A stretch of 57,668 nt of DNA from Lachnospiraceae bacterium. Lineage in GTDB: Bacteria; Bacillota; Clostridia; Lachnospirales; Lachnospiraceae. This document shows, piece after piece, positions 1-15,367 of the stretch. Under the pieces are notes generated by a model that saw only the letters and a program-made list of their open reading frames with translations, did not search any database and was not told the origin of the DNA. Location of the stretch: positions 1 through 57,668 of the forward strand of contig JAFSYI010000081.1 in the NCBI GenBank assembly GCA_017450065.1, written 5' to 3'. The stretch's first letter is position 1. Each line of letters opens with the position of its first letter. Position numbers and translations under genes: made by a program.

Positions 1-1
1 A

Positions 2-346
2 TCATATCATCTGAAAATGCCTCATCGCATCTTCGATAGCCTTAACCTTCTCTTCCGAACACCCCGGCTGTTTACTATCGGGAGACTTAGGCTTGTTATA
101 GTTCTCCCGCTCGATAATCCCATGCTTCTGCTTCACCTGCGCGATATTTAGATTAGTCACCCGATAACCATATTTTGCTTTTATCCAATCCCATATGGCA
201 TTATAGGTCGCACCCTGCTTAAATCCGTCGGTATCCATATCCTCCAGACTGAACTCCACACGGATCTTTTTACTCTTGACATCTCCCTTGGAAAGCAAAC
301 AAACCGTCTCAACATGTGAATGTTCGTCTTTATCCAAACATATCAA
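2..346 (-). pseudogene. Detached C-terminal domain of RNA uracil methyltransferase (rumA/rlmD 3' fragment)
   Basis: The 114-residue reading frame begins, after about ten unrelated residues, with HVETVCLLSK, the usual end of the RumA/RlmD catalytic domain. It continues into the extra C-terminal domain that many clostridial RumA proteins carry (motifs VTNLNIAQVKQKHGIIERENYN and a final RHFQMI). The SAM-binding, TRAM and Fe-S parts are absent. The only available start is a TTG at 344-346 without a convincing ribosome site, and an in-frame TAA lies just upstream. The missing 5' part fits the gene at 13,826-15,367, which ends at the equivalent codons on the same strand. I infer a host rumA 3' end cut off by insertion of the island between them. 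Translation of this piece alone is doubtful. Confidence 0.7.
293..316 (-). other. Candidate attachment core A (attR-like)
   Basis: These 24 bases encode HVETVCLL on the minus strand. On the 5' side the sequence is not RumA-like; on the 3' side it is. That is the expected pattern for a junction between element and host gene. By eye it shares 18/24 bases with the core at 3,565-3,588 and 17/24 with that at 13,838-13,861; differences are mostly at codon third positions. The exact crossover point cannot be fixed from one genome. Confidence 0.45.
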
Positions 347-443
347 AGCAGCTATTTATCGCTGTTTCATTCCACTATTTTATAGTTACAGTGCCGAATG
401 AAATGTAGTCTTTGCTAAATTATTATATAATATGTCTGATCTG

Positions 444-2201
444 TCATCGCAATTCAAGCAGCATTCCTTCATAAGGTAACAAATCTATTTCTTTGTAAAA
501 GCAATCAACTGTTCCCCTTTCATAAATGTCAAATAGCAAGGATCCTTTTCCTGGAAGATTATTACTGAAGTGTGCTTCTTCACCGGAAAAATTCATTACA
601 GCCAAAAGTCGTTGACAGTCAGACTCTCGTAAGAAGGCTAAAACAGCTTTTCCATCTTCCCCTTTTTGGATCCAACGGAAAGCCGCTGCATCATAATCCT
701 TCTGCCACAAAGCGGGGTTTTCAATATAAACTTTGTTCAATCTTCGGCAGTATTCCTGAAACTCAGCATGGACAGGATTTTTTAATGCATCCCAGTCAAG
801 TTCCTTTTTCTCATCCCACTCAAAGATCTGGGCAAGTTCATTGCCCATGAAATTCAGCTTCTTACCGGGGTGCGTAAACATGTATAAGTAAAGCAGTTTA
901 GCTTGTCTGATCCTTGTTTCAAACTCTCCGGACATTTTGTTAACAATGGTTCCCTTGCCGTGTACCACCTCATCATGAGAAAGGGGGAGGAGATAGTTCT
1001 CATTGAAAAAGTAGTCCATTGAAAACAGCAGCTTGCCGATATCCCGTCCTCGATCTGCCGGAGTTTCCCCCATGTATTTCAGCGTATCGTTCATCCAACC
1101 AAGATCCCACTTATAGTCAAAGCCAAGCCCGTTCTGGGACACTGCCTTTGTCGTACCGGAGAAAGGAGTCGAATCTTCTGCAATCAGCATTACATTCGGA
1201 TAGAGGGCCTTTAAGCCAGTGTTCATCCGCTGCATAAACTTCACCGCGTCTTCATTGATTCCTCTGGCACTATTTCCCTGCCAGTAAATGAGATTACCGA
1301 CAGCATCATACCGGAGGCCATCGAAGTGGTACTGATCCAGCCAGAAAGCGCAGGCTGACTGCAGGAATGAGCGGACATCACCACGGGAGTGCATGAAATT
1401 GCAACTGCCCCATTCACTGTATCCGACAGCCGGATGCGGATACTCATACAGAGCTGTGCCGTCAAAATTCCACAGGGCATAGTCATTTACGGCAAAATGA
1501 ACGGTCACGACATCATGAATGACAGAAATTCCATTCTGATGACATAGGTCGACAAGATACTGAAGTCCGTGCGGTTCTCCATACCGAGATGTAACGCTGA
1601 AAAGCCCTGTCTCCTGATAACCCCAGGACTCATCTGCCGGATGCTCTGCCAAAGGCATTAGTTCAACGGCGTTATAGTGATTCTCTTTCAGATATGGTAT
1701 CAGTCTGTCAGCAAGTTCCTGATAAGTGGCCCATCCATCAGCCGGATCTGTTTCACCGTCCCATTTGGCTTTTCTGATCCACGATCCGGCATGAACTTCA
1801 TATATATTCAGTGCAGACTGTTTGCGGTCGTTCCGGGTCTTTAACCAACTCTCATCACTGAATGAATATTGAAGATCATATAAGACCGATGCCGTTCCTG
1901 GTCTTTTTTCGCTCCAGAAAGCATACGGATCGATGTGATCGATGTAGTTCCCACCTTTCTTATAGACCCTGTACTTATATAGTTGCATCACCTTTGCGAA
2001 AGGAACAGACACTTCGTAGAACTGCCCGTCATAAATCTTTTGCATCGGTATTTCTTCCCAGTCAGAAAAATCACCGATTAATGATACTTTGACTGCCGCC
2101 GGTGCATACACTCTGAAGATACACCCTTTATTCAAAGGATGTGCACCCAAATACGCATAGGCGTTGAATTCTTCACCTGCATAAAACTTCTGAAAATCCA
2201 T
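444..2201 (-). CDS. glgB: 1,4-alpha-glucan branching enzyme
   Basis: GlgB forms alpha-1,6 branches in glycogen by transferring oligoglucan chains. The 585-aa protein has an N-terminal CBM48-type module (about residues 20-110) followed by a GH13 barrel. The catalytic nucleophile is in DGLRYDAV (D299), the acid/base in MLIAEDST (E342), and the third carboxylate in PLSHDEVVHGK. The AED form of the acid motif is normal in Firmicute branching enzymes. Length is slightly below the usual 620-730 aa because the N-terminal extension is short. The ribosome site GAGGGAGCAGG lies directly before the ATG. It starts only 32 bp after the serine recombinase stop and lies inside the island that splits rumA, so it appears to be cargo rather than part of a glg operon. 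Glycogen phosphorylase is encoded 43 kb away in this window. Confidence 0.9.
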   Translation of the reverse strand: MDFQKFYAGEEFNAYAYLGAHPLNKGCIFRVYAPAAVKVSLIGDFSDWEEIPMQKIYDGQFYEVSVPFAKVMQLYKYRVYKKGGNYIDHIDPYAFWSEKRPGTASVLYDLQYSFSDESWLKTRNDRKQSALNIYEVHAGSWIRKAKWDGETDPADGWATYQELADRLIPYLKENHYNAVELMPLAEHPADESWGYQETGLFSVTSRYGEPHGLQYLVDLCHQNGISVIHDVVTVHFAVNDYALWNFDGTALYEYPHPAVGYSEWGSCNFMHSRGDVRSFLQSACAFWLDQYHFDGLRYDAVGNLIYWQGNSARGINEDAVKFMQRMNTGLKALYPNVMLIAEDSTPFSGTTKAVSQNGLGFDYKWDLGWMNDTLKYMGETPADRGRDIGKLLFSMDYFFNENYLLPLSHDEVVHGKGTIVNKMSGEFETRIRQAKLLYLYMFTHPGKKLNFMGNELAQIFEWDEKKELDWDALKNPVHAEFQEYCRRLNKVYIENPALWQKDYDAAAFRWIQKGEDGKAVLAFLRESDCQRLLAVMNFSGEEAHFSNNLPGKGSLLFDIYERGTVDCFYKEIDLLPYEGMLLELR

Positions 2202-2233
2202 CCTGCTCCCTCTTCGTCAAATACCGCTCTGCA

Positions 2234-3244
2234 TTAGTCTTTTATTGCTTCAGGCCAATTGATTTCGTCATTACTCTTCTTGACTGTAGTATTGTCTCGC
2301 GCCTTATCCCACTCGAGTTCTTCAGCAAGTGTCTTGCTTACACTGTCTGTCTTTCTTTTCCTTTTTGCTCTTTTATCGATCTGTTGCTGCACTGCTGCAA
2401 ATTTCTCCTTCGATATGATTGCCATATGAGCATCATGCAAGACGTATCTATTATCTGTGGGATTTGATTTCAGTACCTCGACATTTCCTGTATATTTTGC
2501 ATTCGTGAGTACTGTTTCGATGGCCCGTTTACTCCATCGCTCACTCCCTCTTGGCGATGGGATATGCTCCTCTGCAAGAACATCTATGATTCCACTATAG
2601 CTTTTCCCGGCCAGATACAGTTCAAAAATGTGGGATACCACTGCGGCTTGATAGGCGTCACATACCAGTTCTCCCTGATCATTCTTCTTATATCCATAAC
2701 AGGGCTTACGGTACAGTCCGCTTTCTCCACTTTCTGCGCGGAATCGCAATCCCATCTTTATGTTTTCACTGCGATGCTCGTTTTCTGATTGGTTAACAGC
2801 AGAGCGCAGACTTAATTCCCATTCGGGATAACTCGCATCGACATCTATGTCCTCTTCCATAAAGTATATGGTGACTCCGGCGCTGACGAGGGTTCTTATT
2901 GATTCTATTACCTCAACATTATCCCGTCCGAATCGTGACAGGCTTTTCACCACCACGACTTCAATTTCCTGTTTTTTACAGTCATCCAGAAGACGGACAA
3001 ACTCTCTTCGTGATGAACCTGTCTTTGCAGAACCCACTTCCATGTAGATATCCTTTAAGATCCAGTTCTCCCGAGAATAAACATATCGGGTCATTGCAGA
3101 CACCTGTGAACTGAGGCTTCTCAGTTGTTCAGACCGCGCAGTACTGACCCGCACATAGATGCCCGCCTTTATAAGATGAGGTTCCTTCTTGTGGGCAGGA
3201 ATCACTTTTACTTTCGCATTTTCCCGCATAGATCTCTCTCCCAA
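2234..3244 (-). CDS. Serine site-specific recombinase
   Basis: This is a resolvase/invertase-superfamily recombinase that cuts and rejoins DNA through a serine nucleophile. The 336-aa protein has the catalytic motif GIYVRVST near residues 27-34, the LSRFGRD motif, and a following Recombinase domain (KPCYGYKKN, then the DNA-binding stretch around PSPRGSERWSKRAIETVLTN). It lacks the zinc-ribbon and long coiled-coil that most large serine integrases (450-550 aa) carry, so it is a short form. It is the only recombinase in the window and lies 340 bp from one rumA-like core and 1.9 kb from another, so it is the natural candidate for integrating this island. glgB follows directly on the same strand. 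Confidence 0.88.
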   Translation of the reverse strand: MGERSMRENAKVKVIPAHKKEPHLIKAGIYVRVSTARSEQLRSLSSQVSAMTRYVYSRENWILKDIYMEVGSAKTGSSRREFVRLLDDCKKQEIEVVVVKSLSRFGRDNVEVIESIRTLVSAGVTIYFMEEDIDVDASYPEWELSLRSAVNQSENEHRSENIKMGLRFRAESGESGLYRKPCYGYKKNDQGELVCDAYQAAVVSHIFELYLAGKSYSGIIDVLAEEHIPSPRGSERWSKRAIETVLTNAKYTGNVEVLKSNPTDNRYVLHDAHMAIISKEKFAAVQQQIDKRAKRKRKTDSVSKTLAEELEWDKARDNTTVKKSNDEINWPEAIKD

Positions 3245-3320
3245 TGACCACTCTACATAGACCGGGTTTTCTCAGAATGATTATTAGTCCAAGCTCATTT
3301 TACTGCATGATTGGAGTTGA

Positions 3321-3440
3321 AACGATTAGTAAACTCATAGCCTCGACCTACCCCAAATAGTAAAATCGTTTTCTCGTTTTGCCCAAAATAGTAAAACTGT
3401 TGACTCGTTTTCCGAAATAGTAATCTCGTAGCCTCGACCC
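3321..3440. repeat. Four imperfect tandem repeats of about 31 bp
   Basis: TAGTAA recurs at 3327, 3358, 3389 and 3418 (spacings 31, 31 and 29), each followed 8-12 bases later by CTCG or CTCAT. The outer two copies end in the same GCCTCGACC. The array lies between the recombinase start and the core at 3,565. Copies are immediately adjacent with no unique spacers, so it is not a CRISPR. A minus-strand frame of 52 codons (3,295-3,453) runs through it but has no ribosome site. Possible roles are recombinase accessory sites or a degenerate mobile-element end. Confidence 0.6.
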
Positions 3441-3552
3441 TGCTTCTGGACATGTTCCCACATAGGATACCCGAGGGCTTCCATCACACCAGGCACGATT
3501 TGCTCCCAATTGTGGAAACCCCAGTATTTCAGGCTTTTTCAGCCCCTTTTCC

Positions 3553-3726
3553 TCAAGAATGTGTTAGTAGACAGACAGTCTCGACATGGGGCCCATCTTT
3601 ACACTTCATTAACATACTGCGCTCAAATGTTTTATCCCACCCCTTCAACAACCATACGCGTATTTCCCGGCCATCGGTGTTGTAAATCTCTGAAAAACAT
3701 CTGTCCGCCACTTTGTTTTTACCCAT
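3553..3726 (-). CDS. Small hypothetical ORF ending in a RumA-like HVETVCLLTHS peptide
   Basis: An ATG-initiated frame of 57 codons encodes a protein starting MGKNKVADRCFSEIYN and ending HVETVCLLTHS. The last residues copy the RumA C-terminal motif but the preceding 45 residues do not resemble RumA. No clear ribosome site precedes the ATG. It may be a real small gene, but more likely the frame passes through an attachment-site core derived from rumA. I do not recognise the N-terminal part. Confidence 0.25.
   Translation of the reverse strand: MGKNKVADRCFSEIYNTDGREIRVWLLKGWDKTFERSMLMKCKDGPHVETVCLLTHS
3565..3588 (-). other. Candidate attachment core B (internal junction)
   Basis: This is the third copy of the rumA-like core, encoding HVETVCLL on the minus strand. 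It matches 18/24 bases of both the other cores. Sequence on neither side resembles RumA, as expected for an attP-like core or for the junction of two elements inserted in tandem at the same site. Together with cores at 293-316 and 13,838-13,861 it divides the island into a 3.3-kb recombinase-glgB unit and a 10.3-kb restriction unit. Confidence 0.4.
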
Positions 3727-3760
3727 AATAACAAATGCTTATTTTCAATATTAATAGCCC

Positions 3761-4528
3761 TTATTCATCAACTTCATCAACTACTTCTCCATCTATTCCC
3801 TTGTAGTATTCAACATCAGCCACATTGCATGTTGATAAATACTTCCTAAGTTTTTCAGACATAGGCTTATATGTTGCTAAAGTCAATCCTCCCGAAATGA
3901 TTGCTCCAACAACAGGAACTGCTTTAGAAACGCCTCTTGCAAAAATCTCCTTCGTCATCTGAACGCCTAACAAAGCAGCTATCTTCCTTACAACAGGATA
4001 AACTACCCCTTTAGTTAATGCTTTCCTAGGAAGCTTTTTTGCGACCTGTTTTGCTACTTGTCCTGCAATCTTATTTACTGCATTAACGGCCCCATTGACT
4101 CCAAACATTATCCCCACAAATAATGTCAACAGATTTTTAGTCTCCTCATTCATTTCAGCCGAATCGAGATGTAACTCCTGCCATCCATACAAATATATCA
4201 ACTCTTGAAGAATTCGCAGAATATGCCCAAAATACTGGGCTAAATCTGCCGGAACTGTGCCTATCATCGCAAAGCCACCCGGAATACCTGCCGCTGCTGA
4301 TAGTGCTGTTACCCTTGTAGCTTCAGCATTTATACAGCTCTTGGCTATCTTGTTGATTTCTTCTACTTGTATGCCCGCATATGCCGGATTGTATTCTATT
4401 GCTTTTTCAACTACATCTTTGTTATATCTGCCCTTTAATTCCTTACGAAGAAATAGTTCACGGTCTATTTTAACCATCGGCAGTTTTGCTGACTCTACAA
4501 GCACAGTCTCAAAGTCTATTCTTTGCAT
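3761..4528 (-). CDS. EcsC-family protein
   Basis: The 255-aa protein resembles the EcsC family (PF12787) of Firmicutes, named from a gene beside the Bacillus Ecs ABC transporter; its biochemical role is unknown. The clearest stretch is AAGIPGGFAMIGTVPADLAQ with a following helical segment (YFGHILRILQELIYLYGW), then glycine/alanine-rich hydrophobic segments near residues 135-150 and 195-215 that may touch or enter membrane. The C-terminus is acidic. The ribosome site GGAGGG precedes the ATG. It follows the nuclease-pair genes after a 196-bp gap and is the last gene of the restriction part of the island, so it may be a third cargo gene or an independent passenger. Confidence 0.65.
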   Translation of the reverse strand: MQRIDFETVLVESAKLPMVKIDRELFLRKELKGRYNKDVVEKAIEYNPAYAGIQVEEINKIAKSCINAEATRVTALSAAAGIPGGFAMIGTVPADLAQYFGHILRILQELIYLYGWQELHLDSAEMNEETKNLLTLFVGIMFGVNGAVNAVNKIAGQVAKQVAKKLPRKALTKGVVYPVVRKIAALLGVQMTKEIFARGVSKAVPVVGAIISGGLTLATYKPMSEKLRKYLSTCNVADVEYYKGIDGEVVDEVDE

Positions 4529-4724
4529 TTGTTTCCCTCCATTTTCAGATTGGCATATTTCCTTATTCTACTTTCCACAAGTATCTAACATCAAAATCGA
4601 AAACAATTAATGTCCACGCCAGTTGCCCTATTTCTGCTTTTAAATATTTCATGGGACAAGTATCAACAATCCATCTTAATCTTCACGATTCGCTTAAATT
4701 ACGCCATCAAAGCCAGAAGTATTA

Positions 4725-6083
4725 TTAAAGATCGGTTCGTCTACTAGGCCATTCATAAGAATATTCACATATTTCTATATTATCCGGGCACAAATCAAAT
4801 GTTTCATTCCCAATGTCTTCATAACCTGTCTTAAATTCGCCGGTTTTTAGATTAATAAAATCATGTACGCTAAAAAACTCATGTATAGCGCTACCACCAC
4901 CATCGTCTTTGTATTTTCCGTTAGACCATTTATATATTATCCCTGTTTCAAGGAAAAAATGAACTAGACGAGCATATGCCGAAGGATTGATATCTTTAAT
5001 ATAAAAAATAGTGCTACCACTTGGCATAGGCCTTTCAATAACGTCAGCAATATTATTCACAATTGCAAGCTTGCATATTGTCTCAAATTCTTCATTGTTT
5101 TGCTTCTTATTTCTAAAGACCCACCACGAACCATAATTATCCATTATAAACCTTCGCCATGCAAATCTTGATTGTTCGATATACGGAATTTTCTCTTTTG
5201 AATAAAATATAATATCTTCTTTTGCTCTAATGGATTCGGTTTTTATAGAATACTTGTATTCAAACTCATAACAAATCCTCTCATGTGACTTGCCCCTGCT
5301 CAAATCGTCCCCTATAAAATTATTCCAATATCCTATAACATCTGTTTCCACCTTCCTGATAGTCTCAGCTGCTATCCTGGAAACGTCGATTACATATGCC
5401 ATATTCTGATGCGGATTAAAGAAACCTATTCTTGTGATGTTATTAAAGGCACTCTGCCCGGAGTGTTTTCCCATAATCCAGTACATTAATATCTGAAGGG
5501 TATGCCTTGATGTTACTTTTGATTTTCTTACCTTAAGATCCCATAGTCCATCTTTTGTTAGATAATCTCCGTCTCCAGAGCTTACTTCTTGGGTGTATCC
5601 GCCTTCGAATTCGAAACTTGTTTTCACAACCGGACCATACATCTTAAAAAAGGTAAGATTACGATTAATAAGAATACGAATATTTTCAATTGTCGGTATG
5701 TCCGGATTCACTTGTTCCTGCGTAGGAGATAAGGCAGCATACAAAGGATTTCTATACCAAACATCATATGCCACAAGCTTACATGCACTTATAATGGATG
5801 TATCAGTTAATCCTCGTATTCTCCTTAGTAAGGGTGACACCTTTTTCCTTTCACCCGCAAGAGATGCTCCATAAAGGGAAATATCAAAGGCTATGGATGG
5901 TTTTTCACCTAACATATATCGTGTAAGGTAATCAACAGCTAACCCCAAAAGAATGGGAGAGATGTTTATCTGTTCATTTAAAATCTGCCCATCCTCAAAA
6001 GATTCAGTTGTAAACTCTTTAACCGGCAGATATCCGCCATAAGGTTGTTTAATTTGTGAGATTCTTCCACTTACAGATGGCAT
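4725..6083 (-). CDS. Uncharacterised protein with RecB/Cas4-like PD-(D/E)XK nuclease signature
   Basis: The 452-aa protein has no name I can assign. Residues 170-205 carry the pattern of a PD-(D/E)XK nuclease: an acidic residue in SGDGDYLTKDG (D173), the core strand LWDLKVRK (D182, K184), then Q197 in TLQILMYWIMG. The spacing D-x8-D-x-K with a glutamine and tyrosine on the next helix matches RecB-, AddB- and Cas4-type nucleases. The helical first 150 residues are typical of that group. The last 200 residues match nothing I know. The gene starts with ATG, 24 bp after the 462-aa gene, so the two are very likely co-transcribed. Base composition is AT-rich like the neighbouring hsd genes. DNA cleavage is inferred, not shown. 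Confidence 0.6.
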   Translation of the reverse strand: MPSVSGRISQIKQPYGGYLPVKEFTTESFEDGQILNEQINISPILLGLAVDYLTRYMLGEKPSIAFDISLYGASLAGERKKVSPLLRRIRGLTDTSIISACKLVAYDVWYRNPLYAALSPTQEQVNPDIPTIENIRILINRNLTFFKMYGPVVKTSFEFEGGYTQEVSSGDGDYLTKDGLWDLKVRKSKVTSRHTLQILMYWIMGKHSGQSAFNNITRIGFFNPHQNMAYVIDVSRIAAETIRKVETDVIGYWNNFIGDDLSRGKSHERICYEFEYKYSIKTESIRAKEDIIFYSKEKIPYIEQSRFAWRRFIMDNYGSWWVFRNKKQNNEEFETICKLAIVNNIADVIERPMPSGSTIFYIKDINPSAYARLVHFFLETGIIYKWSNGKYKDDGGGSAIHEFFSVHDFINLKTGEFKTGYEDIGNETFDLCPDNIEICEYSYEWPSRRTDL

Positions 6084-6107
6084 TTTTCCTCCACGTTTAT
6101 TTTGCTA

Positions 6108-7496
6108 TTAAAAAGCCAGATACTGAGGCTTACTATCCATTACATTGCCATTGACTCTTGTTTGACTTAGACTCCACTTGTGATATTCCATATATATCTT
6201 ATGTTTGTTCTCAATAATAATATTCTTATTTTCAGGATTTAGTGCTGTATTTTTTATTATAATATAGACCACATCAACTTTTGCCATATTCCTGCTGTAT
6301 TTGGCAATTTCACTTAGCACAGTAATATCCGGCCTTGCATAATCCAAAAGATGATCAGAGCCGAAGCTTATGCGCAATGTACTTCCTTTGTTTATAACCT
6401 CTGCCCCCGGATATATTGATTTTATTGTCTGGCATAGCATTTCAAAAGTTTTATACCCATAAAGCTGTTCTATATATTGGCAGGCCTTTTCATATCCAAA
6501 CGTTAATACTCCTCCCTTGCCTTCCTTAACAATATCCTTAATATATTTCTCGTAGCTTTGACGTAAAAAGTATTTCTTCTCAGCTGCCATTAGCAGCTTC
6601 CTATTTAAGGCTTCATATTGTATCCTCTCATCCTGCTCCTGCATTGATTGATAATACAAGAAATTTATAAGAATAGTTGAGAACACCTTTTTTATAATAG
6701 CCGACTCCATCTCATCCCTATTGGGGATATCATCTATTGGCTTTCCTATGATCTTCATAAGAAACGAAGTTCTTGTCTTAACTACATAATCAAGTGTGAA
6801 TATATCTTCTACCGGATCCTTGCTACAATATTTCTCAAAGATCTCCATAACCACTTGAACAATGCCTATATAATGCTCTAATTCCACAACATCTACATAG
6901 ACATCATTCATCATGCCCTTTACTTTTCCCTTAATAAAGCTTACAAATCTCTTTTCTTCAGTCGTTGCTTTTCTACCGACCCTTTTAGGTGACTCTCCAT
7001 CAACCGAATAGTCACTTTCTCCAGCAGTATCCTTTTCGTCCTCAAATATGATCCCCATATGCCCGGTTCCCAAAAATCTATGGACAAACATATTACGGAT
7101 TTTTGATACCGCACTGTACTGTTTGTATGCATATCTATACTCATCCGGGATCTTAAAGTCTATAATGAAATCTTCCGGCTCGCCATCGTCACCTTCCTGT
7201 TCCATTTTTATCTGATTCATATACTTTAAGTTATTCTTATAATCTTGCCATTCCGTTGCTGTTGTAGCTTCAGCCTTAAAAAACTTGATCCTATCTTCTA
7301 TGAACTTGTTCCCAGATGATTCTATTTCAAAATCATTAAGACTATCCTGCTTGCTTTGCGATTCTCTATAATTCGCCAGTGCCACAGGATTATAGGCCCA
7401 GCATCTCAAATTCTCAACCTTGTCTTCATATGCAAGAGATACTTCAAAAATATCCGTAAGATAATCCCGGCTTTCCTCAGTGATATATACTTTCAA
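6108..7496 (-). CDS. Uncharacterised 462-aa protein paired with the nuclease-like gene
   Basis: I do not recognise this protein. It has no signal peptide or membrane segment, and a charged, mostly helical character. Residues 145-180 are a low-complexity acidic-to-basic linker. The last 100 residues (TLRISFGSDHLLDYARPDIT followed by KVDVVYIIIKN and NIIIENKHKIYMEYH) alternate beta-like strands with acidic and lysine residues and could be a second nuclease-like fold, but no motif is decisive. The start is TTG at 7494-7496 after AACGGAG; no ATG lies nearby, so the exact start is uncertain. A terminator behind hsdS and a TATAAT box at 7,571 separate it from the restriction operon. It is the first gene of a two-gene transcript with the nuclease-like protein. 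Confidence 0.6.
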   Translation of the reverse strand: MKVYITEESRDYLTDIFEVSLAYEDKVENLRCWAYNPVALANYRESQSKQDSLNDFEIESSGNKFIEDRIKFFKAEATTATEWQDYKNNLKYMNQIKMEQEGDDGEPEDFIIDFKIPDEYRYAYKQYSAVSKIRNMFVHRFLGTGHMGIIFEDEKDTAGESDYSVDGESPKRVGRKATTEEKRFVSFIKGKVKGMMNDVYVDVVELEHYIGIVQVVMEIFEKYCSKDPVEDIFTLDYVVKTRTSFLMKIIGKPIDDIPNRDEMESAIIKKVFSTILINFLYYQSMQEQDERIQYEALNRKLLMAAEKKYFLRQSYEKYIKDIVKEGKGGVLTFGYEKACQYIEQLYGYKTFEMLCQTIKSIYPGAEVINKGSTLRISFGSDHLLDYARPDITVLSEIAKYSRNMAKVDVVYIIIKNTALNPENKNIIIENKHKIYMEYHKWSLSQTRVNGNVMDSKPQYLAF

Positions 7497-7570
7497 CTCT
7501 CCGTTAGATAATCTGAACAGGTTGTATTACATCATTCATGATAAATCCCAATATTTATTGAGACACATAT

Positions 7571-7600
7571 ATTATATGATATTGATCATTTATAAATAAT
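7571..7600 (-). promoter_or_regulatory. Candidate promoter of the two-gene nuclease cassette
   Basis: A perfect TATAAT lies at 7,571-7,576 on the minus strand, with a weak TTATTT -35 seventeen bases upstream. It sits between the hsdS terminator and the 462-aa gene, so the cassette can be expressed separately from restriction. Confidence 0.4.
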
Positions 7601-7606
7601 TCACAA

Positions 7607-7636
7607 ACGGCTTTCGACTGTTTTATCGAAAGCCGT
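7607..7636 (-). terminator. Hairpin terminator behind hsdS
   Basis: Perfect 11-bp stem (ACGGCTTTCGA / TCGAAAGCCGT) with an 8-base loop, 5 bp past the hsdS stop. The run after it on the minus strand is TTTGTGAATTATTTA, moderately T-rich. It closes the hsdRMS operon. Confidence 0.7.
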
Positions 7637-7640
7637 CTTA

Positions 7641-8897
7641 TTAAACAATCTTCACTTTTTGCGTAAGCACTAACGGAGATATTGTTTTCAGCAAATTAGT
7701 TAGCTTTTGATTTTCTTGTTTGAGAGCATTTACTTTATCAAATGACTCCTTTGTCATTTCACAATATCTATCAATCATAGGATTTGGTTTAATAATATAC
7801 ATATCCCTTAGGTCACCTAAACCTATGAATTTTTGAATACTGCCACTAAGCATGCCTTCAGTAAACCTTCTCATATATGAAGACTTCAACCACATATAAA
7901 TATAATTCCTGTTTTTGTATATACCTGAGGTCTTGTATAATGCAACATTTTTTATTGCAAAATTAATATTCTCCTCTTCTACCTTATACACATTTCCTAC
8001 AGTTCCAATCATTGAATAAAGAATATCACCAGTTTCAACTTTACTTCTCTGGTTAATTGCTGTGTAATCCTCCTCTGAAATCAAATAGGCGGCATCAAAA
8101 TCTATACCCCAATCCGTTAAATGCTTTGATGTAATTAAATGAAAACCGTTATCATTTGGCTTAGGAGATTCATGAGTCCCATCTCTAACCTCAACCACAT
8201 CTCTCATCTTAACTATTTCCCAAGAGTCCGGAATATTATGCTTTATTTTTCCATCATATCTTAATTTTTTACCTAAAGATTTATACGTACCATCATCATA
8301 CGGAAACTCGAAAGATAGAAACCATCTGTCAAAGAGCAATGACTGTGTTCTTTCTATCAAGTTAATTTCTCGTAAATTCATATCTATTTTTGAGTCTATA
8401 CTATTTAACACATTAACTATATCATTTTGCAAAGCAATATCCGGCAATTCAAACTCAAATTCAGACAAATCCTCCTGGTATAAGTGACTTATAGTACTTC
8501 CCATTGCTTTGTTTCTAAAAATAAAATCTTTGAATATAGGGCTCTTGAGAAGATGATACAAAAAATCAAAATTCAGCTTGTCCGGTATAGTATTTCTCAA
8601 AACAAATATCCCTGCCGCAACTGTTGTTGGGCCTATCATGTTTTTCACATATCCTATTTTCCCTAGAGTTCCATCCTTTGAAATAAGCAAATCGTTTTCC
8701 TTAAGCATTATTTCTGGAGACTCATCATATCTATCCTTGCTTATGTATCCACAATTATCCCAGTCAACAAATCTATCCATTAATGCTGTAGCATTTATTA
8801 TTCTATATTCACTTTTATCAAGGTATTCATCTTTGTTTAATCCACGCCATCCTATCCTGCCTTTTAAATATAGATCTCTACCAACATTAAGCTTCAT
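7641..8897 (-). CDS. hsdS: Type I restriction-modification specificity subunit
   Basis: HsdS gives the DNA target of the type I complex. The 418-aa protein has the usual two target-recognition halves, each ending in a conserved helix: the central one near residues 160-200 (IALQNDIVNVLNSIDSKID) and the C-terminal one near 375-410 (NALKQENQKLTNLLKTI). Length is normal. The start is set by AAGGAG eight bases before the ATG. The ATG lies inside the end of hsdM, overlapping it by 11 bp, so translation is coupled. No second hsdS half or inverted repeats lie nearby, so I see no sign of phase-variable specificity. Confidence 0.92.
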   Translation of the reverse strand: MKLNVGRDLYLKGRIGWRGLNKDEYLDKSEYRIINATALMDRFVDWDNCGYISKDRYDESPEIMLKENDLLISKDGTLGKIGYVKNMIGPTTVAAGIFVLRNTIPDKLNFDFLYHLLKSPIFKDFIFRNKAMGSTISHLYQEDLSEFEFELPDIALQNDIVNVLNSIDSKIDMNLREINLIERTQSLLFDRWFLSFEFPYDDGTYKSLGKKLRYDGKIKHNIPDSWEIVKMRDVVEVRDGTHESPKPNDNGFHLITSKHLTDWGIDFDAAYLISEEDYTAINQRSKVETGDILYSMIGTVGNVYKVEEENINFAIKNVALYKTSGIYKNRNYIYMWLKSSYMRRFTEGMLSGSIQKFIGLGDLRDMYIIKPNPMIDRYCEMTKESFDKVNALKQENQKLTNLLKTISPLVLTQKVKIV

Positions 8898-10521
8898 AAG
8901 TTAGTCTCCTTAAATTTTTCAGCAACTCTTTATTCAACTTTTTGTCATGCTCAAAGCATAATTCAAGATTAGATGTTAGATTGTTAATTTCGTTTTCAAA
9001 CTCTTCCTGAGTGTATTCTTTGAATTCCAATTTTGCCTCAAAGTATAAAGCTACACTTAACGAATATTTTTTGCTCTTTATCTGATCAATCGTTGTCTTG
9101 GCAGAAATTTTATCAACAATCTCCATATTAACGAACATATTTACTATTGACTTCATTTCATCATCGTTTAGGACCGTTCGTTGATTCTTACCATCCACCT
9201 TTACCTTCGTACCCATTCCAGATGCATCAATCAATATTACATCTTCATTCTTCATATCTTTATCTAAAAAAAGAATGGAAACATTGGTTCCGGTAGTTGC
9301 AAATATATTTGAAGGCATAGATACCACGCCGCGAAGCATTTTTTTATCTATTATTTTTTCTCTTATAGTTTTTCCTATACCGTTTTTTACTGTAAGGAAT
9401 CCTGTCGGCACAACAACTGCGGCTTTACCTCGATCTCCCATTGAAAAAATGATATGTTGTAGGAACATCAAATATACTGGCATCTTTTCCTTCTCTTTTT
9501 TTGGTATATTAGGAACGCCCGCCCAGAATCTTTCCTTATATTTTTCACCTGCAAGGGTATCTCTATCATCAGAAAAATCCATATTAAAAGGGGGATTTGA
9601 TACAATATAATCAAACTTCATCAATCCATCTTTTTTCTTATTTAAGTGTTCGGGCTGCAGTAGAGTATTACCGTGAACCACATTACTTAACGAATGAACC
9701 AAATTATTTAGTATTAAATTTAGTCTCAGAAATTCATTCGATTTCTGAGATATATCTTGTGTATATATTGTACAGTTCTGCTCTCCTATTTCATGAGCCA
9801 ATGCCAACACAAGTGTACCAGATCCAGCAGCCGGATCATATGCCGTTACATTTTTAGCACCATTAGGAACAATGATTTTTGCAATAATGCTTGCTATAGA
9901 ATGTGGCGTGTAATATTCTGCGTACTTGCCGAAATCTTTATTATAATCCTTAATCAGATATTCAAACACAGCAGCAAAAAAATCGTACTTTTGTGTAAAT
10001 GCTTCTTCAAAGCTGAAATCAACAATTTTATCAATCATAGCTCGGCAAAAGTCTGCTCTCTTATTTCTCTCAGTAACATGAACAGACAGTGCATCAAACA
10101 AACGAATTTTATCTTCGGAACCAGTTTTTACAGAAAAAACATCTATATTATAATTCCCTATGTCTACAAGTGTATTGTCAAATAACTCATCAAATTTTTC
10201 AGTATTTTTACGATTGAATAGATACGAAATAAAATGTTCTCTCTTAAGCTGAGCTGTAGCGGGTGGTAAAGATGCCAAGAGGAATTCATACTCTTCCTCT
10301 GTCAGTTTCGATAAATCCATTTCAAGATTATTACTATCAGTGTACTGAGAATCTATCTCTCTCACTTCATGTAAAAATTTATCATTAAGAAATTTGTATA
10401 GAAAAATCTCTGTGATGATTTTATATTCACTGCTTGCGTTTCCTAAACCGAAGTTAGCACAAACAGTCTTCAAATCATCAATCATAGTTTTTGTTTTGGA
10501 CATTATCAATTCTGTTGTCAT
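8887..10521 (-). CDS. hsdM: Type I restriction-modification methyltransferase subunit
   Basis: HsdM is the N6-adenine methyltransferase of the complex and uses S-adenosylmethionine. The N-terminal helical HsdM domain (about residues 10-140) is followed by the methylase domain with YYTPHSIASII, the SAM motif DPAAGSGTLVL and the catalytic NPPF motif. The chosen ATG overlaps the hsdR stop as TAATG. An ATG 12 bases earlier (10,533) is also in frame, directly behind AGAAAGGAA, and would add four residues. Length (544 aa) is typical. The order hsdR-hsdM-hsdS with overlapping ends indicates one transcript. Confidence 0.93.
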   Translation of the reverse strand: MTTELIMSKTKTMIDDLKTVCANFGLGNASSEYKIITEIFLYKFLNDKFLHEVREIDSQYTDSNNLEMDLSKLTEEEYEFLLASLPPATAQLKREHFISYLFNRKNTEKFDELFDNTLVDIGNYNIDVFSVKTGSEDKIRLFDALSVHVTERNKRADFCRAMIDKIVDFSFEEAFTQKYDFFAAVFEYLIKDYNKDFGKYAEYYTPHSIASIIAKIIVPNGAKNVTAYDPAAGSGTLVLALAHEIGEQNCTIYTQDISQKSNEFLRLNLILNNLVHSLSNVVHGNTLLQPEHLNKKKDGLMKFDYIVSNPPFNMDFSDDRDTLAGEKYKERFWAGVPNIPKKEKEKMPVYLMFLQHIIFSMGDRGKAAVVVPTGFLTVKNGIGKTIREKIIDKKMLRGVVSMPSNIFATTGTNVSILFLDKDMKNEDVILIDASGMGTKVKVDGKNQRTVLNDDEMKSIVNMFVNMEIVDKISAKTTIDQIKSKKYSLSVALYFEAKLEFKEYTQEEFENEINNLTSNLELCFEHDKKLNKELLKNLRRLTYEA

Positions 10522-13500
10522 TAGGATACCCATTTCCTTTCTGCAAAGTATTCTTGTGATAAACAGGTATCAATAAACTTTACCTGTGGCATACTTACCT
10601 TTGTACCTTCCTGCTTACAAGCTTTAATAATAAATGGTTGTAATGATTTTGCAAAAAATGCTTCATTATCCAATACACTTTCATTATTCGCTATCTGATT
10701 GTCCGCATTTGACTTCACAAACATTAAGATTTTATGAACTGTCATCGCATCTGCTATCGGTGGAGGTGTTCCCATAATTCTCTTATGGGTACGCATGAAC
10801 TTAACATCACCACCATATTTTGCTGCAAGCATTTGGTCAGCATGATTGTGCTGTTCAGCTTTTTTTCGTAGTGCATCTAGCTCATCAGTCATCTTCTTCA
10901 TTTCATCAGCGGTCAGCTCTTCAATATTCTTTTTCTTAAAAATACGTTTTAGCTCAGCCAATAGAGAAGTGTACTCTGGATCTTGCGGATCAAGACAACG
11001 CTCGACTATTTCTCGTCTTGTTTTCTCCAAAGAACTACGGAAGGCATCTGCAATTACTAATTCTTCTTCTCCTATCTTTCTAAACTGAAAATCGATCTGA
11101 TCAAGAGCCAAATTTAGAACTCCTGACATGTCTTCCGCACTTTGTACATTCTGTTTAAAATTGATTATATTAATACGATTGTTTACTTCGTTCAATAACT
11201 GTATAGCTTTCTTAACATCAAAATTTTGAGCCAACTCATCATATCCAAACATCCTTATAAGATTATTTAGAATCTTATAATCTTCAAGAGCTTTTTTCAG
11301 GTCCAGCAACTGCCTCTTATCATCTATTCCATTGATCTGGTCAATGAATGAAACAACATTCTCTGTATCATACAGAAAAAGCTGGTTCTTAACATTCTTA
11401 AGATCCTTTTCTATATCATCCTTGCTTTTGAAAATATCACTGTAGTTTTGGATTTCATCACCCAATTCGGCTTGGAGTTCTTCAAAATATGCTTGGTTTG
11501 TTTTATCAAATTCCTCCTTAATATTCGCAAAATCAACAACATATCCGTAATGATAGTCTTTATAAGGTCGGTTTACTCTTGTCAATGTCTGTAGCAGATT
11601 ATGTGCCTTAATCATTCTTGCCAGATACTGCTTTTTAAGCCTCGGTGCGTCAAATCCTGTTAGAAGCATATTGTAAACAACAAGAATATCTATCTTACCT
11701 TTTTTGAAATCTTCCTGAATGTCTTTCCTAATTTGCTTTGACCCCTCGTCATGAAGAACCAAAGCGTGACTATAAGATGTAAGCCTTTTTAGTTGCTCCT
11801 CTACCTGTCTAGCCTGAGATGCCGAATCGCATACTACCATCGCCCCAACCGAATCATCCAATGTATTCCTTCCTTTTTCATAATCGTGTAGAATATATTC
11901 AACCATTCTTTCAACAAATTTGGGATGGGAATAAACATCCGCTTTTTTTAAAGATCCGATTTGAACTTCTAATTGTTCTAATGCTTCCTGCATTTTGGTT
12001 TTATAAGAAGTTTCGATTTCTTCACGTATCAATCTCAAAGTATATCCATCTGCAATAGATTGATTGTAATAATACTTATGGATATATTCGCCAAAAATAT
12101 CCTTTGTATTGTATCCATCACCGATTAAAGGCGTACCTGTTAGTGCAATCATAATAGCACTACGATCAGATGCCATCAAATTAGCCAGAAATGAACCCTT
12201 TGGATTATAACTACGATGGGCCTCATCAAGAAAATACACCCTTTGAACATTGACATTATAATCTGACTGCTTCGTCACAGATTCCGTCGAAAACTTCTGT
12301 ATATTCACAACAGTTATAATCCTTTTTCCACTCTTATCTTGTTCACCTACCGCTGCAATATTCGATTTAAACTCTTCCTTAGAATCAACAAGTATGACTT
12401 TTAGCCCACGTGCTTCAAACTCTTCTTTTGCCTGTATCGCAAGATCAATGCGATCAACTATAAAATAAAATTTTGCAATCTTTCCCTGTTCTTGCAGATA
12501 ATCTGTAATATAACTCACGTTTGAAAAAGCAAGTGCTGTCTTACCGCTCCCCTGTGTATGCCATATAATTCCCTTCTTCACGCCCGCCTTCAGTCTATCC
12601 TCTATTGCCAAAGTAGCGAAAAGCTGGGGATATCTCATAATATGCTTCTCTATATGTCTAATTCCATTCTTATCTGTCGAAACTTTATAACATAGTCCAT
12701 AATTTAGCAGAAATTTTATCCGGGCAGGCACATATAAAGATGTCAATATCCTGTTTGTTGGAGAATCTGGATTGATAGACGAAGAATACTCCGGCGTCCC
12801 TTTTATTGATACAAGATTGGTATCCTTCAATATTTCTCTTTCAACATCCAAATCTATAGGCTTAATCTCTTGCTGAAGTTCCTCTTTCCTTTGTTCTCGA
12901 AATTTACTGAAAAACATTTTCCCATAATTACTTGATGCATAAAACGCCCCTTGTATCGGCTCAATGTCCGTATCATCATATTCACTGTTATTGGAAAACA
13001 CAGTAAACTGAGTTATATTAGCATACCTTCTATATATGGGATTTGAAAATCTTCTGGTCATACGTTCACGTTCTACCAGAATTCCTTCTCGGTTATTCTG
13101 CCGTTTTACCTCCACAAAAGACAGTGGCATGCCGTTTATTAGAATTGTAATATCAGGTCTAAAACTATCATCACCATTTTCGTATGGCAACTCTGTTATT
13201 ACCACATAGCTGTTTCTATCTTCCTTTGAGAAGTCGACTAGTTTAATTCCATCACATCCCTTTTTCAGTAGTGCAAAAAATGACAGCCCCAAATCCTCGT
13301 TGTCGAGCTTTATCTTTATCTCGTCAACTTTTTTCTTTATTTCCTCTTTTGAAAGAGAAGTATTATTTATTCTATTAACAGATTCCATAAATTCGGCATA
13401 AAATATATTGGTGTCCGGATCATAATCACTTCCCCTCACCATTTCCTTTATGGACATATATTTATATCCGAGTCTGGTAAGATGCACCAAGGCGGGAATC

Positions 13501-13529
13501 TTTACTCTTGAATCTTCAGGTCTGCCCAT
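10521..13529 (-). CDS. hsdR: Type I restriction endonuclease subunit
   Basis: HsdR is the ATP-driven DNA translocase and nuclease of the type I complex. The 1002-aa protein has an N-terminal PD-(D/E)XK nuclease (D126 in SFRPDITIL, E140 and K142 in SFVEVKRQ), Walker A THTQGSGKT-like HTQGSGKTALAF near 324-335, the DEAH box VYFLDEAHRSYNP, the motif ALTGTPL, and the later helicase motifs MLLTGFDAP and LTRVNRPYKDYHYG. The C-terminal 250 residues are helical, for contact with HsdM. All key residues are present, so it looks active. The ribosome site AAAGGA lies 10 bases before the ATG. It is the first gene of the operon. Confidence 0.95.
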   Translation of the reverse strand: MGRPEDSRVKIPALVHLTRLGYKYMSIKEMVRGSDYDPDTNIFYAEFMESVNRINNTSLSKEEIKKKVDEIKIKLDNEDLGLSFFALLKKGCDGIKLVDFSKEDRNSYVVITELPYENGDDSFRPDITILINGMPLSFVEVKRQNNREGILVERERMTRRFSNPIYRRYANITQFTVFSNNSEYDDTDIEPIQGAFYASSNYGKMFFSKFREQRKEELQQEIKPIDLDVEREILKDTNLVSIKGTPEYSSSINPDSPTNRILTSLYVPARIKFLLNYGLCYKVSTDKNGIRHIEKHIMRYPQLFATLAIEDRLKAGVKKGIIWHTQGSGKTALAFSNVSYITDYLQEQGKIAKFYFIVDRIDLAIQAKEEFEARGLKVILVDSKEEFKSNIAAVGEQDKSGKRIITVVNIQKFSTESVTKQSDYNVNVQRVYFLDEAHRSYNPKGSFLANLMASDRSAIMIALTGTPLIGDGYNTKDIFGEYIHKYYYNQSIADGYTLRLIREEIETSYKTKMQEALEQLEVQIGSLKKADVYSHPKFVERMVEYILHDYEKGRNTLDDSVGAMVVCDSASQARQVEEQLKRLTSYSHALVLHDEGSKQIRKDIQEDFKKGKIDILVVYNMLLTGFDAPRLKKQYLARMIKAHNLLQTLTRVNRPYKDYHYGYVVDFANIKEEFDKTNQAYFEELQAELGDEIQNYSDIFKSKDDIEKDLKNVKNQLFLYDTENVVSFIDQINGIDDKRQLLDLKKALEDYKILNNLIRMFGYDELAQNFDVKKAIQLLNEVNNRINIINFKQNVQSAEDMSGVLNLALDQIDFQFRKIGEEELVIADAFRSSLEKTRREIVERCLDPQDPEYTSLLAELKRIFKKKNIEELTADEMKKMTDELDALRKKAEQHNHADQMLAAKYGGDVKFMRTHKRIMGTPPPIADAMTVHKILMFVKSNADNQIANNESVLDNEAFFAKSLQPFIIKACKQEGTKVSMPQVKFIDTCLSQEYFAERKWVS

Positions 13530-13581
13530 TAATTACAATTCCTTTCTTAATTCGTACCTTCAAAAAGATGTTATCTATTGT

Positions 13582-13610
13582 ATTATATCAAATGTTTCCC
13601 CATATAAAAT
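13582..13610 (-). promoter_or_regulatory. Candidate promoter of the hsdRMS operon
   Basis: TATAAT at 13,582-13,587 on the minus strand with a weak ATTTTA -35 seventeen bases upstream, about 50 bases before the hsdR start codon. The -10 box is perfect but the -35 is poor. Confidence 0.4.
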
Positions 13611-13619
13611 GATAAAACT

Positions 13620-13708
13620 CTGTCCGCCAATATGTCTAACACCTTTACGCAAAATTAATCCATACTCTTTGGCGTACATTTTCCAAGCCAAACATTATGG
13701 CGAACATT
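13620..13708. repeat. GGCGNACA motifs at the island end, one shared with the other end
   Basis: TTTGGCGTACATT (13,668) and ATGGCGAACATTTG (13,698) lie on the plus strand and ATTGGCGGACAGAG on the minus strand (13,617-13,630). A fourth copy, GTGGCGGACAGATG, lies on the minus strand at the other end of the restriction part (3,698-3,711). CTGTCCGCCA is identical at 3,701-3,710 and 13,620-13,629. They may be element-end binding sites. Confidence 0.4.
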
Positions 13709-13715
13709 TGGCTTG
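13684..13715. repeat. Imperfect inverted repeat in the hsdR-rumA gap
   Basis: Arms CAAGCCAAACATT and AACATTTGGCTTG match at 11 of 13 positions around a 6-base loop. No T-run follows on the minus strand. On the plus strand only a late TTCTTTTTA follows. More likely a protein-binding dyad near the island end than a terminator. Confidence 0.45.
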
Positions 13716-13804
13716 TCCGCTGTAAGGTGTTCTTTTTATGCACATGTCCTCTAAAATACATTTTTTATGCTTCGATTTCTGTTCTTATTTTTGCCCATAA
13801 AACG

Positions 13805-13848
13805 CCTGTAAAGCTCACAAATACGCTATTTCCTTGTGAGCAGACAGG
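13805..13848. repeat. Dyad spanning the rumA stop and attachment core
   Basis: Arms GCTCACAA (13,813-13,820) and TTGTGAGC (13,834-13,841) are perfect. Outside a short mismatch the pairing resumes with CCTGT / ACAGG, giving arms of about 15 bases. The rumA stop lies in the loop and the outer arm overlaps the HIETACLL core. It could act as the rumA terminator (TTTACAGGCGTTTT follows on the minus strand) or as an inverted-repeat recombinase site. Confidence 0.5.
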
Positions 13849-15367
13849 CAGTTTCAATATGTACAGTCGCAGGGAACTGATCGATGGCGCATATCCGGGT
13901 GGGTTTATAGCCGCAGGCTGTAAGCATCTCAAGATCACGTGCAAGAGAAGTGGGTTTACAGGAGATATACAGGATGTTATCAACGCCATAATTTATTATC
14001 TTCTTAAGAGCCCTGGGATTAACACCTTCGCGGGGCGGATCGAGGACGATCATATCCGGCTTATCCTCTATTTCATCCATCACCTTAAGGACATCTCCGG
14101 AAATAAATTCACAGTTATGTAAACCATTGAGCTCAGCATTTGCTTTGGCGGCTTCAACAGCCTCCTCCACTATTTCTACTCCGATAACCTTATCTGCAAC
14201 AGGAGCAAGGAGTTGCGCTATCGTTCCGGTTCCGCTGTACAGATCATATATCACACCCTTTTTCTCAATATATAATTCTTTTTTGCCAGAATGCCCCTCT
14301 CCATTATGTAAACCAGCGCCATCCTCGCCTTCCTCAACGGCGCGATGACCTGCACACGAAAGCACATATTCCCTTGCAGTATCATACAGTACTTCGGCCG
14401 ACAATGAATTGGTCTGGAAAAATGAAAACGGCGATATTTTGAACTTAAGGCCAAGCAGTTCCTCATAAAAGTAATCCTTGCCATATAATATGTCCGTTTT
14501 ATCGTTCATAATAGTATCAGACAGGGAATCATTTGTTGTGTGAAGGATACCGGCTATCTTTCCCTTAAGTTGACCCGAACGCTCTATGGTTAACATAACT
14601 TCCTTCCAGTCATCTATCAGTGATACCTCTGTACATATGGTAGGTGCCGGTTCTTTGGATGTTGTAACGAGATCGATCAGTATCTCACCGGTCTTAACAG
14701 CCTTTCTCACCAGGAGATGTCTGAGATAACCTTCATGTCTCATCTTATGATAGTATGGTGTTTCCTTACCCCGAAAATAGCTTAATGTTTCACTTAAGAT
14801 GATACGATAATCCTCATCAACTATCCTGCAGTCCTTAACTGAAATAACATCATAAAAGCTTCCTCTTTTATGTAAACCGAGTTCAAGCTCTCCATCCTTA
14901 CTTGAATCGCCGAATGAGAACTCCATCTTATTCCTGTATCCTAGCTGTACAGGACTCCCCTTGATCCCTTCAAATACTTCGTCAATATTTGGAACCACAG
15001 GTAACAGCAAAGCCCTAACCTGCTCCTCTTTAAGTTTCAGCTGTTTCTCATATGGCAGGTTCTGATAAGTACAGCCTCCGCACTGACCGAAATGCCTGCA
15101 TAACGGCTCTGTCTCATCCTGTGACTTCTCAAGGATTTCCACCAGTCTACCTTCACATTTTCCGCCCTTTTTCTTATTTACGATAAAGGATACCCTTTGT
15201 CCCTTCACAACATTTTTAACCGTGCATATCTCATTCTGCGAGAATTCCGCACTTGCCGGTACACACTTACCGTCTTCAGAAGCACAAACAGCTTCCACCC
15301 TGACAATTCCTTTATTCGGAAATTTCACCTCAGTAACCAGGCCTGAGTACATCTGCCCTTTTTTCAT
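13826..15367 (-). CDS. rlmD: 23S rRNA (uracil-C5)-methyltransferase, RumA/RlmD family, with replaced 3' end
   Basis: The enzyme methylates C5 of a uracil in rRNA using S-adenosylmethionine and a 4Fe-4S cluster. Residues 1-65 form a TRAM-like domain. The cluster motif is CRHFGQCGGCTYQ near 88-101. The methylase part has FFQTNSLSAEVLY, the SAM motif YDLYSGTGTIAQLL, VLDPPREG and the catalytic cysteine motif YISCKPTSLARDL. A glycine/glutamate-rich insertion of about 35 residues precedes the SAM motif. It ends ATVHIETACLLTRK and stops, whereas the gene's probable original 3' part, a further C-terminal domain, lies at 2-346. The catalytic domain is intact, so the enzyme is probably active. The last three residues come from the inserted DNA. 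Confidence 0.9.
   Translation of the reverse strand: MKKGQMYSGLVTEVKFPNKGIVRVEAVCASEDGKCVPASAEFSQNEICTVKNVVKGQRVSFIVNKKKGGKCEGRLVEILEKSQDETEPLCRHFGQCGGCTYQNLPYEKQLKLKEEQVRALLLPVVPNIDEVFEGIKGSPVQLGYRNKMEFSFGDSSKDGELELGLHKRGSFYDVISVKDCRIVDEDYRIILSETLSYFRGKETPYYHKMRHEGYLRHLLVRKAVKTGEILIDLVTTSKEPAPTICTEVSLIDDWKEVMLTIERSGQLKGKIAGILHTTNDSLSDTIMNDKTDILYGKDYFYEELLGLKFKISPFSFFQTNSLSAEVLYDTAREYVLSCAGHRAVEEGEDGAGLHNGEGHSGKKELYIEKKGVIYDLYSGTGTIAQLLAPVADKVIGVEIVEEAVEAAKANAELNGLHNCEFISGDVLKVMDEIEDKPDMIVLDPPREGVNPRALKKIINYGVDNILYISCKPTSLARDLEMLTACGYKPTRICAIDQFPATVHIETACLLTRK
13838..13861 (-). other. Candidate attachment core C (attL-like)
   Basis: Encodes HIETACLL at the end of the rumA catalytic domain. 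Sequence 5' of it on the minus strand is plainly RumA (RICAIDQFPAT). The three codons 3' of it lead straight to a stop. Shares CTGTCT and the downstream CT-ACA pattern with core B. Confidence 0.45.

Follow-up and report, generated by a model that had tools for sequence, protein, structure and literature searches.

Integrase-less segments bounded by att sites, known as CIMEs, can accumulate in tandem at one site, i.e., via site-specific accretion. In streptococci, ICEs that integrate in rumA exchange the 3' parts of rumA and of their own serine integrase gene, with the frame of both being changed (PMC4701971), and that exchange has been compared with the one seen with phage Mx8 (PMC4701971). 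The gene rumA is listed as well among the integration sites of IMEs (PMC5357655, PMC5704250) and is an integration hotspot in Dehalobacter (PMC11578063). Control over the direction in which a serine integrase acts, that is, integration or instead excision, has been achieved by fusing a directionality factor to the integrase (PMC5737554).

The locus considered here is found in a draft genome from a Lachnospiraceae bacterium (100 contigs, 88% completeness). By 'the window' is meant the whole stretch of DNA that was analysed, 57,668 nucleotides, which is an entire contig (G000:C50:1-57668). Its features of interest, as read along the minus strand, are the following.

13826-15367, minus strand: rumA/rlmD, a complete 23S rRNA uracil methyltransferase (TIGR00479; PF05958 to residue 513)
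13835-13861, minus strand: attL region, i.e., the codons for HIETACLLT, at the meeting point of rumA and island end (sequence and junction alignment)
13799-13828, minus strand: recurring island end TAGCGTATTT..., named class II (pattern search of genus genomes)
10521-13529, minus strand: hsdR, type I restriction subunit (PF18766, PF04313; PADLOC REase_I)
8887-10533, minus strand: hsdM, type I methyltransferase (PADLOC MTase_I, 2.2e-222)
7641-8897, minus strand: hsdS, type I specificity subunit (PF01420; PADLOC Specificity_I, 9e-56)
6108-7496, minus strand: island protein without an assigned family (no match, at the limits used, in Pfam, NCBIfam, PHROGs or PADLOC)
4725-6083, minus strand: candidate defense gene, PDC-S61-like (PADLOC, 3.7e-101)
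3761-4528, minus strand: candidate defense gene, PDC-S30-like (PADLOC, 2e-103)
2234-3244, minus strand: short serine recombinase of 336 residues, resolvase and recombinase domains only (PF00239, PF07508)
444-2201, minus strand: glgB-like branching enzyme (NF008967, 622 bits, cut-off 577)
317-346, minus strand: probable integrase C-terminus remnant, ICLDKDEHS, sharing the tail's reading frame (motif LDx[DEGN][DEKSGT]H)
302-316, minus strand: attR region, HVETV (sequence and junction alignment)
2-316, minus strand: displaced integrase-type C-terminal tail domain (relatives, integrase fusions, profile comparison, structure model)

The order along that strand thus is rumA, island, and then tail, with 13.5 kb between the end of rumA and the tail. 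The contig ends with the stop codon of the tail, and the outer flank of the site therefore is not visible. An initial annotation had noted that rumA (13826-15367, minus) ends, just before its stop codon, in HIETACLLTRK and that HVETVCLLSK is found within the open reading frame at 2-346 (minus), from base 316 downward; both are as described, and the resulting tail of 104 residues (2-316, minus) indeed lies downstream of rumA on the same strand. The observation itself, a rumA end along with a displaced tail, is confirmed, and the phenomenon is more general than first noted. The further idea that only the catalytic part of the enzyme had been left behind fails, as at 513 residues this RumA is already full length by both TIGR00479 and PF05958, i.e., its catalytic part is not truncated. 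The protein belongs with RlmD/RumA by the equivalog TIGR00479 (E 2.3e-81, 273.8 bits against a cut-off of 183.55), and we read its final residues, roughly from HIETACLLTRK onward, as element-derived. As for the crossover itself, the dinucleotide GA was considered and then dropped, since the motif used for picking junctions contains E and GA accordingly is constant by construction.

The insertion lies at the rumA 3' end, with the rumA junction on one side and the tail at the other end, as is the case with the ICEs and IMEs of rumA serine integrases. It also is bounded, in the manner of a CIME, by attL and attR, with no integrase of that specificity in between. Particularly, a large serine integrase (resolvase, recombinase, and zinc ribbon) is absent from the island, the sole candidate there being the 336-residue recombinase, which covers positions 67-366 of the 651 of the phrog_95 profile. 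The initial annotation had pointed to this recombinase, but it lacks both the zinc ribbon and the VETV junction of rumA integrases, and no counterpart was returned at E<=1e-60 from 36 other same-genus genomes; it was rejected as integrator and probably is unrelated to rumA integration. The source genome, searched with the integrase of locus L023, gave no match at E<=1e-100 (four of ten candidates scored). No conjugation or mobilization module is present among those island genes that have family matches, one island protein having no family. The complete glgB-like gene (444-2201), flanked by the recombinase and the displaced tail, is unusual cargo for a defense island.

Tail relatives were inspected as the best 80 of 570 matches, confirmed in genome contigs, along with 20 other same-genus loci, and among those best 80 the closest are from Lachnospiraceae. 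The best match outside of the window, 94% identical over residues 10-114, lies within a RumA reading frame of 622 residues in same-genus G008. By a first script, which undercounts, at least 76 of 108 tail matches are joined to RumA, and several tails are in-frame C-terminal extensions of large serine integrases, i.e., ones with resolvase, recombinase, and zinc-ribbon domains. The 148 distinct tail instances consist of 103 at RumA junctions, 19 at integrase junctions, and 26 orphans, with frame being kept at 102 of the 103 RumA-tail and 18 of the 19 integrase-tail junctions. The tails also have a median dN/dS of 0.078 (163 non-independent pairs among 94 RumA-fused tails). Conservation of frame, together with purifying selection across the exchange, suggests that the integrase benefits in some way from the tail. 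An integrase without the VETV motif, one of a tandem at L132, furthermore ends in a homologous domain (hhalign probability 99.7, E 4.4e-26). Judged from sequence, the tail is the C-terminal domain of large serine integrases having attP inside their own gene, rather than the accessory domain of RumA that had been supposed, as it goes with those integrases that target rumA.

The window's tail has no match in NCBIfam and none near the cut-off in Pfam. Its sole family-level match is to phrog_27283, of unknown function (E 3.2e-7); weak matches to Ribosomal_L23 are seen with 24 of 38 tails (best E 0.0011), and the best hit of a PDB sequence search has an E of 0.11. An AlphaFold2 model, made from an alignment of 38 chosen tails (mean pLDDT 77, pTM 0.56), has three helices, H38-49, H55-64, and H88-100, of which the first two, as modeled, look like a helix-turn-helix.

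Tails are found in other contexts as well. Tandem integrases are present at L132, L133, and L141, in each case with the upstream copy having a tail-type end without a VETV junction (as profile-tested for L132). At L078:8211-10345 an orphan tail is found just downstream of a different serine integrase, one 26% identical to the rumA type, and which stops before that tail. Plasmid records with a tail relative (e.g., L263) number 96, of which 90 are Enterococcus; in 39 of 40 listed rows the relative is a hypothetical protein or has no feature, and one that was examined sits among resistance genes. Three tails in the alignment, L070, L086, and L094, have a mosaic look, with the start of one type and the end of another, suggesting recombination inside of the tail.

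What very probably gave rise to the arrangement in the window is an exchange of 3' ends at rumA, one that keeps frame, with a tail arriving first, a tail-less element arriving later, and the latter's integrase then being lost such that a defense island was left. The rumA 3' end would, that is, serve as attachment site for large serine integrases that carry attP in the 3' part of their own gene, at a VETV-like codon motif that is read in the same frame as the HVEV/HVET of RumA. With each integration RumA would gain the integrase's C-terminal domain, and the integrase would gain whatever RumA had ended with. For the strain's ancestry we infer an order of events in which an element first would have given RumA a tail, a state that same-genus relatives still display. 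Integration of a second element, one whose end was short and had no tail, would then have transferred the RumA tail to that element's integrase at attR, with RumA acquiring its present end. Lastly, that integrase would have been lost except for its final codons, with the defense island remaining between attL and attR.

The motif LDx[DEGN][DEKSGT]H, picked after seeing the integrase ends, lies ahead of the junction in 9 of the 17 LD-type integrases, and within the window's 115,332 six-frame residues it is found once, right before the tail. This LDKDEH is the only trace seen of an integrase gene in which attR would lie, and from its position directly before the tail, attR probably held an integrase that now is lost except for its end. 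The other end of the island, that is, the TRK and stop codon of RumA followed by TAGCGTATTT..., recurs within the genus: when as many as 3 mismatches are allowed, 9 of the 37 genomes, among them the source genome, have it at 10 places in all, versus 1 match for a reversed control pattern in the same 37. At nine of these ten places the class II end comes after a RumA gene, which belongs to one or the other of two paralogue types; at the remaining one, in G036, it comes after an integrase-like remnant. A stricter pattern is matched at 6 places in 5 of 298 family genomes, five of them after RumA and the sixth (G002) after a short frame without RumA and with the stop absent. Pattern searches of these 37 genus and 298 family genomes returned no integrase bearing a class II end, and so it is from about nine codons and a post hoc motif that we infer this island's integrator. 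The source genome's second, distant RumA paralogue (G000:C4:63058-63341; L237, L271), 33% identical to that of the window, likewise has a class II end, with the contig end roughly 250 bases away.

Islands without an integrase recur at rumA ends. In six layouts RumA has a short end and is separated from an orphan tail by 0.83-14.5 kb of inserted DNA without a rumA-type integrase, these being the window, L274, L033, L050, L055, and L061 (L047 was left out, its tail belonging to a second rumA). The layout of the window is repeated in another genus (G195), with a class II end on RumA, 14.5 kb, an orphan tail, and no rumA-type integrase, and there the island holds PDC-S68, TmtA-like, PrimPol/helicase, and AbiD-like genes. 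Behind the class II end of G028 are type I restriction-modification genes along with ZacABC and PDC-S14, with no rumA-type integrase within 20 kb and no second end seen, and in G018 hsdM and hsdR are found in the 6.6 kb between the class II end and the end of the contig. PADLOC gave no match in the 20 kb behind the class II end of G032 (five genes tested) nor in the 2.7 kb to the contig end in G090 (two genes tested). Overall, defense genes are found behind 4 of the 6 RumA-linked class II ends that have more than 2 kb beyond them. PADLOC matches are seen also behind the integrase-like remnant of G036, and these look like ordinary dgt and dnaG genes. The inserts of L033, L050, L055, and L061, between short RumA end and orphan tail, are of 0.83-1.4 kb, with three of them holding one gene of 251-333 residues. 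The L061 array has five core-pattern matches, four of which adjoin RumA, tail, or an integrase end. Along L061:8593-12700 the VETV cores, one of them an integrase end, are some 1.2-1.4 kb apart with single genes between (MacB-like, unknown, and GNAT/YoaP), and by its sequence this stretch looks like a cassette array.

From a different perspective, the island could be a non-autonomous passenger, i.e., one which never had an integrase and which was moved in trans by rumA integrases recognizing its ends. The six layouts speak for such a passenger, as does the class II end being 99.5% identical over 199 bp between L268 and L269 while the RumA proteins in front of it are only 58.6% identical. The attR of the window, however, keeps a probable integrase remnant, and one L061 core is an integrase end, both of which favor integrase loss by decay; a passenger origin for the island is plausible, if on the whole somewhat improbable.

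Were the tail instead the original accessory domain of clostridial RumA, with one island having simply cut the gene, then its relatedness should follow RumA. Across 26 pairs consisting of a tailed RumA and the next downstream same-strand integrase (Mantel test, 9999 permutations), distances between RumA tails track those between integrase bodies (r=0.832, p=0.0001), which are kilobases away, and not those between RumA bodies (r=-0.056, p=0.87), the effective number being smaller than 26 since near-identical elements remain. The tail of RumA, by this comparison, goes with the integrase of the adjacent element. Left out were L029 and L137 (junction or partner unseen), L230 (a duplicate of L079), L075 (junction unmatched by script), and L243/L244 (frameshifted tail). 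The long integrase C-part, available for only 6 pairs, correlated with neither integrase body (r=-0.09) nor RumA tail (r=0.11).

The reciprocal of this exchange is seen with integrases that end in native-RumA-type sequence with a YYRI motif, L059, L079, L086, and L190 (L079 apparently being the same contig as L178 and L230). The L059 integrase end, VEVCCLLERLRSAKDHIEITIDAEDYYRIKDSEKKQDE, nearly repeats the untailed RumA end of same-genus G036 (L123), VEVCCLLEKLKSAKEHIEITIDAEDYYRIKDSEKKQDE. In G302 the order is RumA-tail, Int1-tail, Int2-tail, with the first two tails of the types expected from the neighboring element, and this is read as a stack of successive insertions. Among 23 family-sample pairs, chosen for tail and integrase on one contig such that the RumA side is biased upward and the integrase end is unselected, RumA has 22 full tails (that of L225 looking internally shortened) and 1 that is frameshifted, and the integrases have 4 full, 2 native, 2 partial, and 14 short ends, with 1 running off the contig. 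Integrase-first loci (30 from a longer list) have 28 visible ends: 5 full, 2 native, 2 partial, and 19 short. Of the 57 distinct integrase ends visible over all fetched loci, 20 have the full tail, 6 a partial one, and 3 a native end, the other 28 being short; an integrase, then, does not invariably carry the tail. Of the corresponding 124 distinct RumA ends, 93 are full and 7 partial, with 22 short ones and 2 of the native type; the tail was the main bait used in assembling this set, and the counts are BLAST-based, with L059 and L123 falling among the partial ends. That the intact copy usually is on RumA is what one would expect were the tail being preserved for the excised circle.

The native RumA end (AK-HIEI-IDAED-YYRI; L109, L112, L123, and integrase L059) resembles the first third of the tail, which is why L059, L112, and L123 score as partial tails. 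This resemblance hints at a common origin of native RumA end and tail start: long ago, a RumA end may have been the source from which attP was copied, and a very old RumA origin of the tail's first third is conceivable.

Relatives of the same genus display the site in different states. The RumA of G008 is fused to a complete tail, 95% identical to that of the window, as the initial annotation had anticipated of some intact relative. G019 (RumA 88-89% identical) and G035 (RumA 82-86% identical) each begin the same tail on RumA before the contig ends. With G021, by comparison, the syntenic site is empty: RumA is 77% identical and ends in HVEVCCLLERIRPA and a stop codon, followed by a hydrolase gene, and two neighbors upstream of this rumA are common to the window. 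An uninterrupted rumA, as also had been anticipated, is here in that the island is absent, but the tail is absent too. The gene which follows the empty site was not found in the window's own genome, and the outer flank could not be located there by that route.

A single cut through a native RumA domain is, given the above, quite unlikely. It is consistent with order and strand in the window, with how common RumA-tail fusions are in the tail-baited set, and with the native RumA end resembling the tail start. The tail nevertheless follows the integrase and not RumA, RumA can have a native, tail-less end, as at the syntenic site and in other places within the genus, and the same domain ends an integrase which has no junction motif. 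Of the interrupted gene as first described, what stands is an island with a rumA junction on one side and a displaced tail on the other; what does not is the tail as an original part of RumA. Least likely of all, indeed very improbable, is that the orphan tail is a stray fragment neighboring this rumA by chance, since, even though orphan tails are found also away from rumA, e.g., on plasmids, here strand and order agree with rumA, the tail is 93-95% identical to those on RumA of G008 and G019 (over 46 residues for G019), and the same layout is found in another genus (G195).

Returning to the exchange of 3' ends, one consequence is that many long RumA proteins in the set end in about a hundred residues which behave as borrowed integrase sequence, and RumA and integrase families therefore are easily mislabeled. 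A tail that apparently is useful to the integrase furthermore makes a domain-swapping recombination 'switch' directly testable. As the rumA site gathers integrase-less defense islands, RumA ends in -HVETV- can serve also as a beacon for these. Tentatively, RumA might be viewed as a chromosomal parking place for the integrase tail, with the hand-over being a switch that helps to set direction and with defense islands as passengers. While integrated, the helix-turn-helix-like tail would be made as part of RumA, with the integrase in residence usually being without it; excision would return the tail to the integrase, such that the integrase of the circle would differ from the chromosomal one; and integrase-less defense islands would use the same sites as passengers.

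Streptococcal rumA ICEs and IMEs with a single serine integrase (PMC4701971, PMC5357655) resemble the present system in the rumA target, a reciprocal exchange of 3' ends, and a suggested functional difference between two integrase forms, and their attR lies within the integrase gene, as that of the window probably once did. The window's island, however, has no integrase of this kind, and it carries defense genes. Streptococcal ICEs also are reported to change frame (PMC4701971), whereas the exchange seen here preserves it and involves a conserved tail domain. A streptococcal phage record, YS162, nonetheless has RumA and tail in a single gene of 1638 bases, so that frame is not always changed in streptococci either. 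Phage Mx8, of Myxococcus, is similar in having attP in the integrase gene and a replaced C-terminus, with the altered integrase reported to be less active, but its integrase is a tyrosine integrase, and that description, as far as its partial text goes, has no domain handed to a host enzyme (PMC4701971). The Dehalobacter hotspot resembles the present one in its use of the rumA 3' end and its nested recombinase islands, with the text of PMC11578063, in the part accessible, describing no exchange of protein tails.

CIMEs are similar in being integrase-less between att sites and in their tandem accretion at one site, and differ in that the sites of the window are inside of a protein gene, have a translated tail, and are serine-integrase sites, mobilization in trans here being putative. 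The open-licence literature, as represented by partial texts, yielded no description of a conserved tail domain common to RumA and integrases, nor of an exchange that preserves frame. What is seen here is a frame-preserving variant of the known habit of integrating in rumA, and what is new is a conserved, frame-preserved, and selected tail domain along with integrase-less islands at the rumA site.
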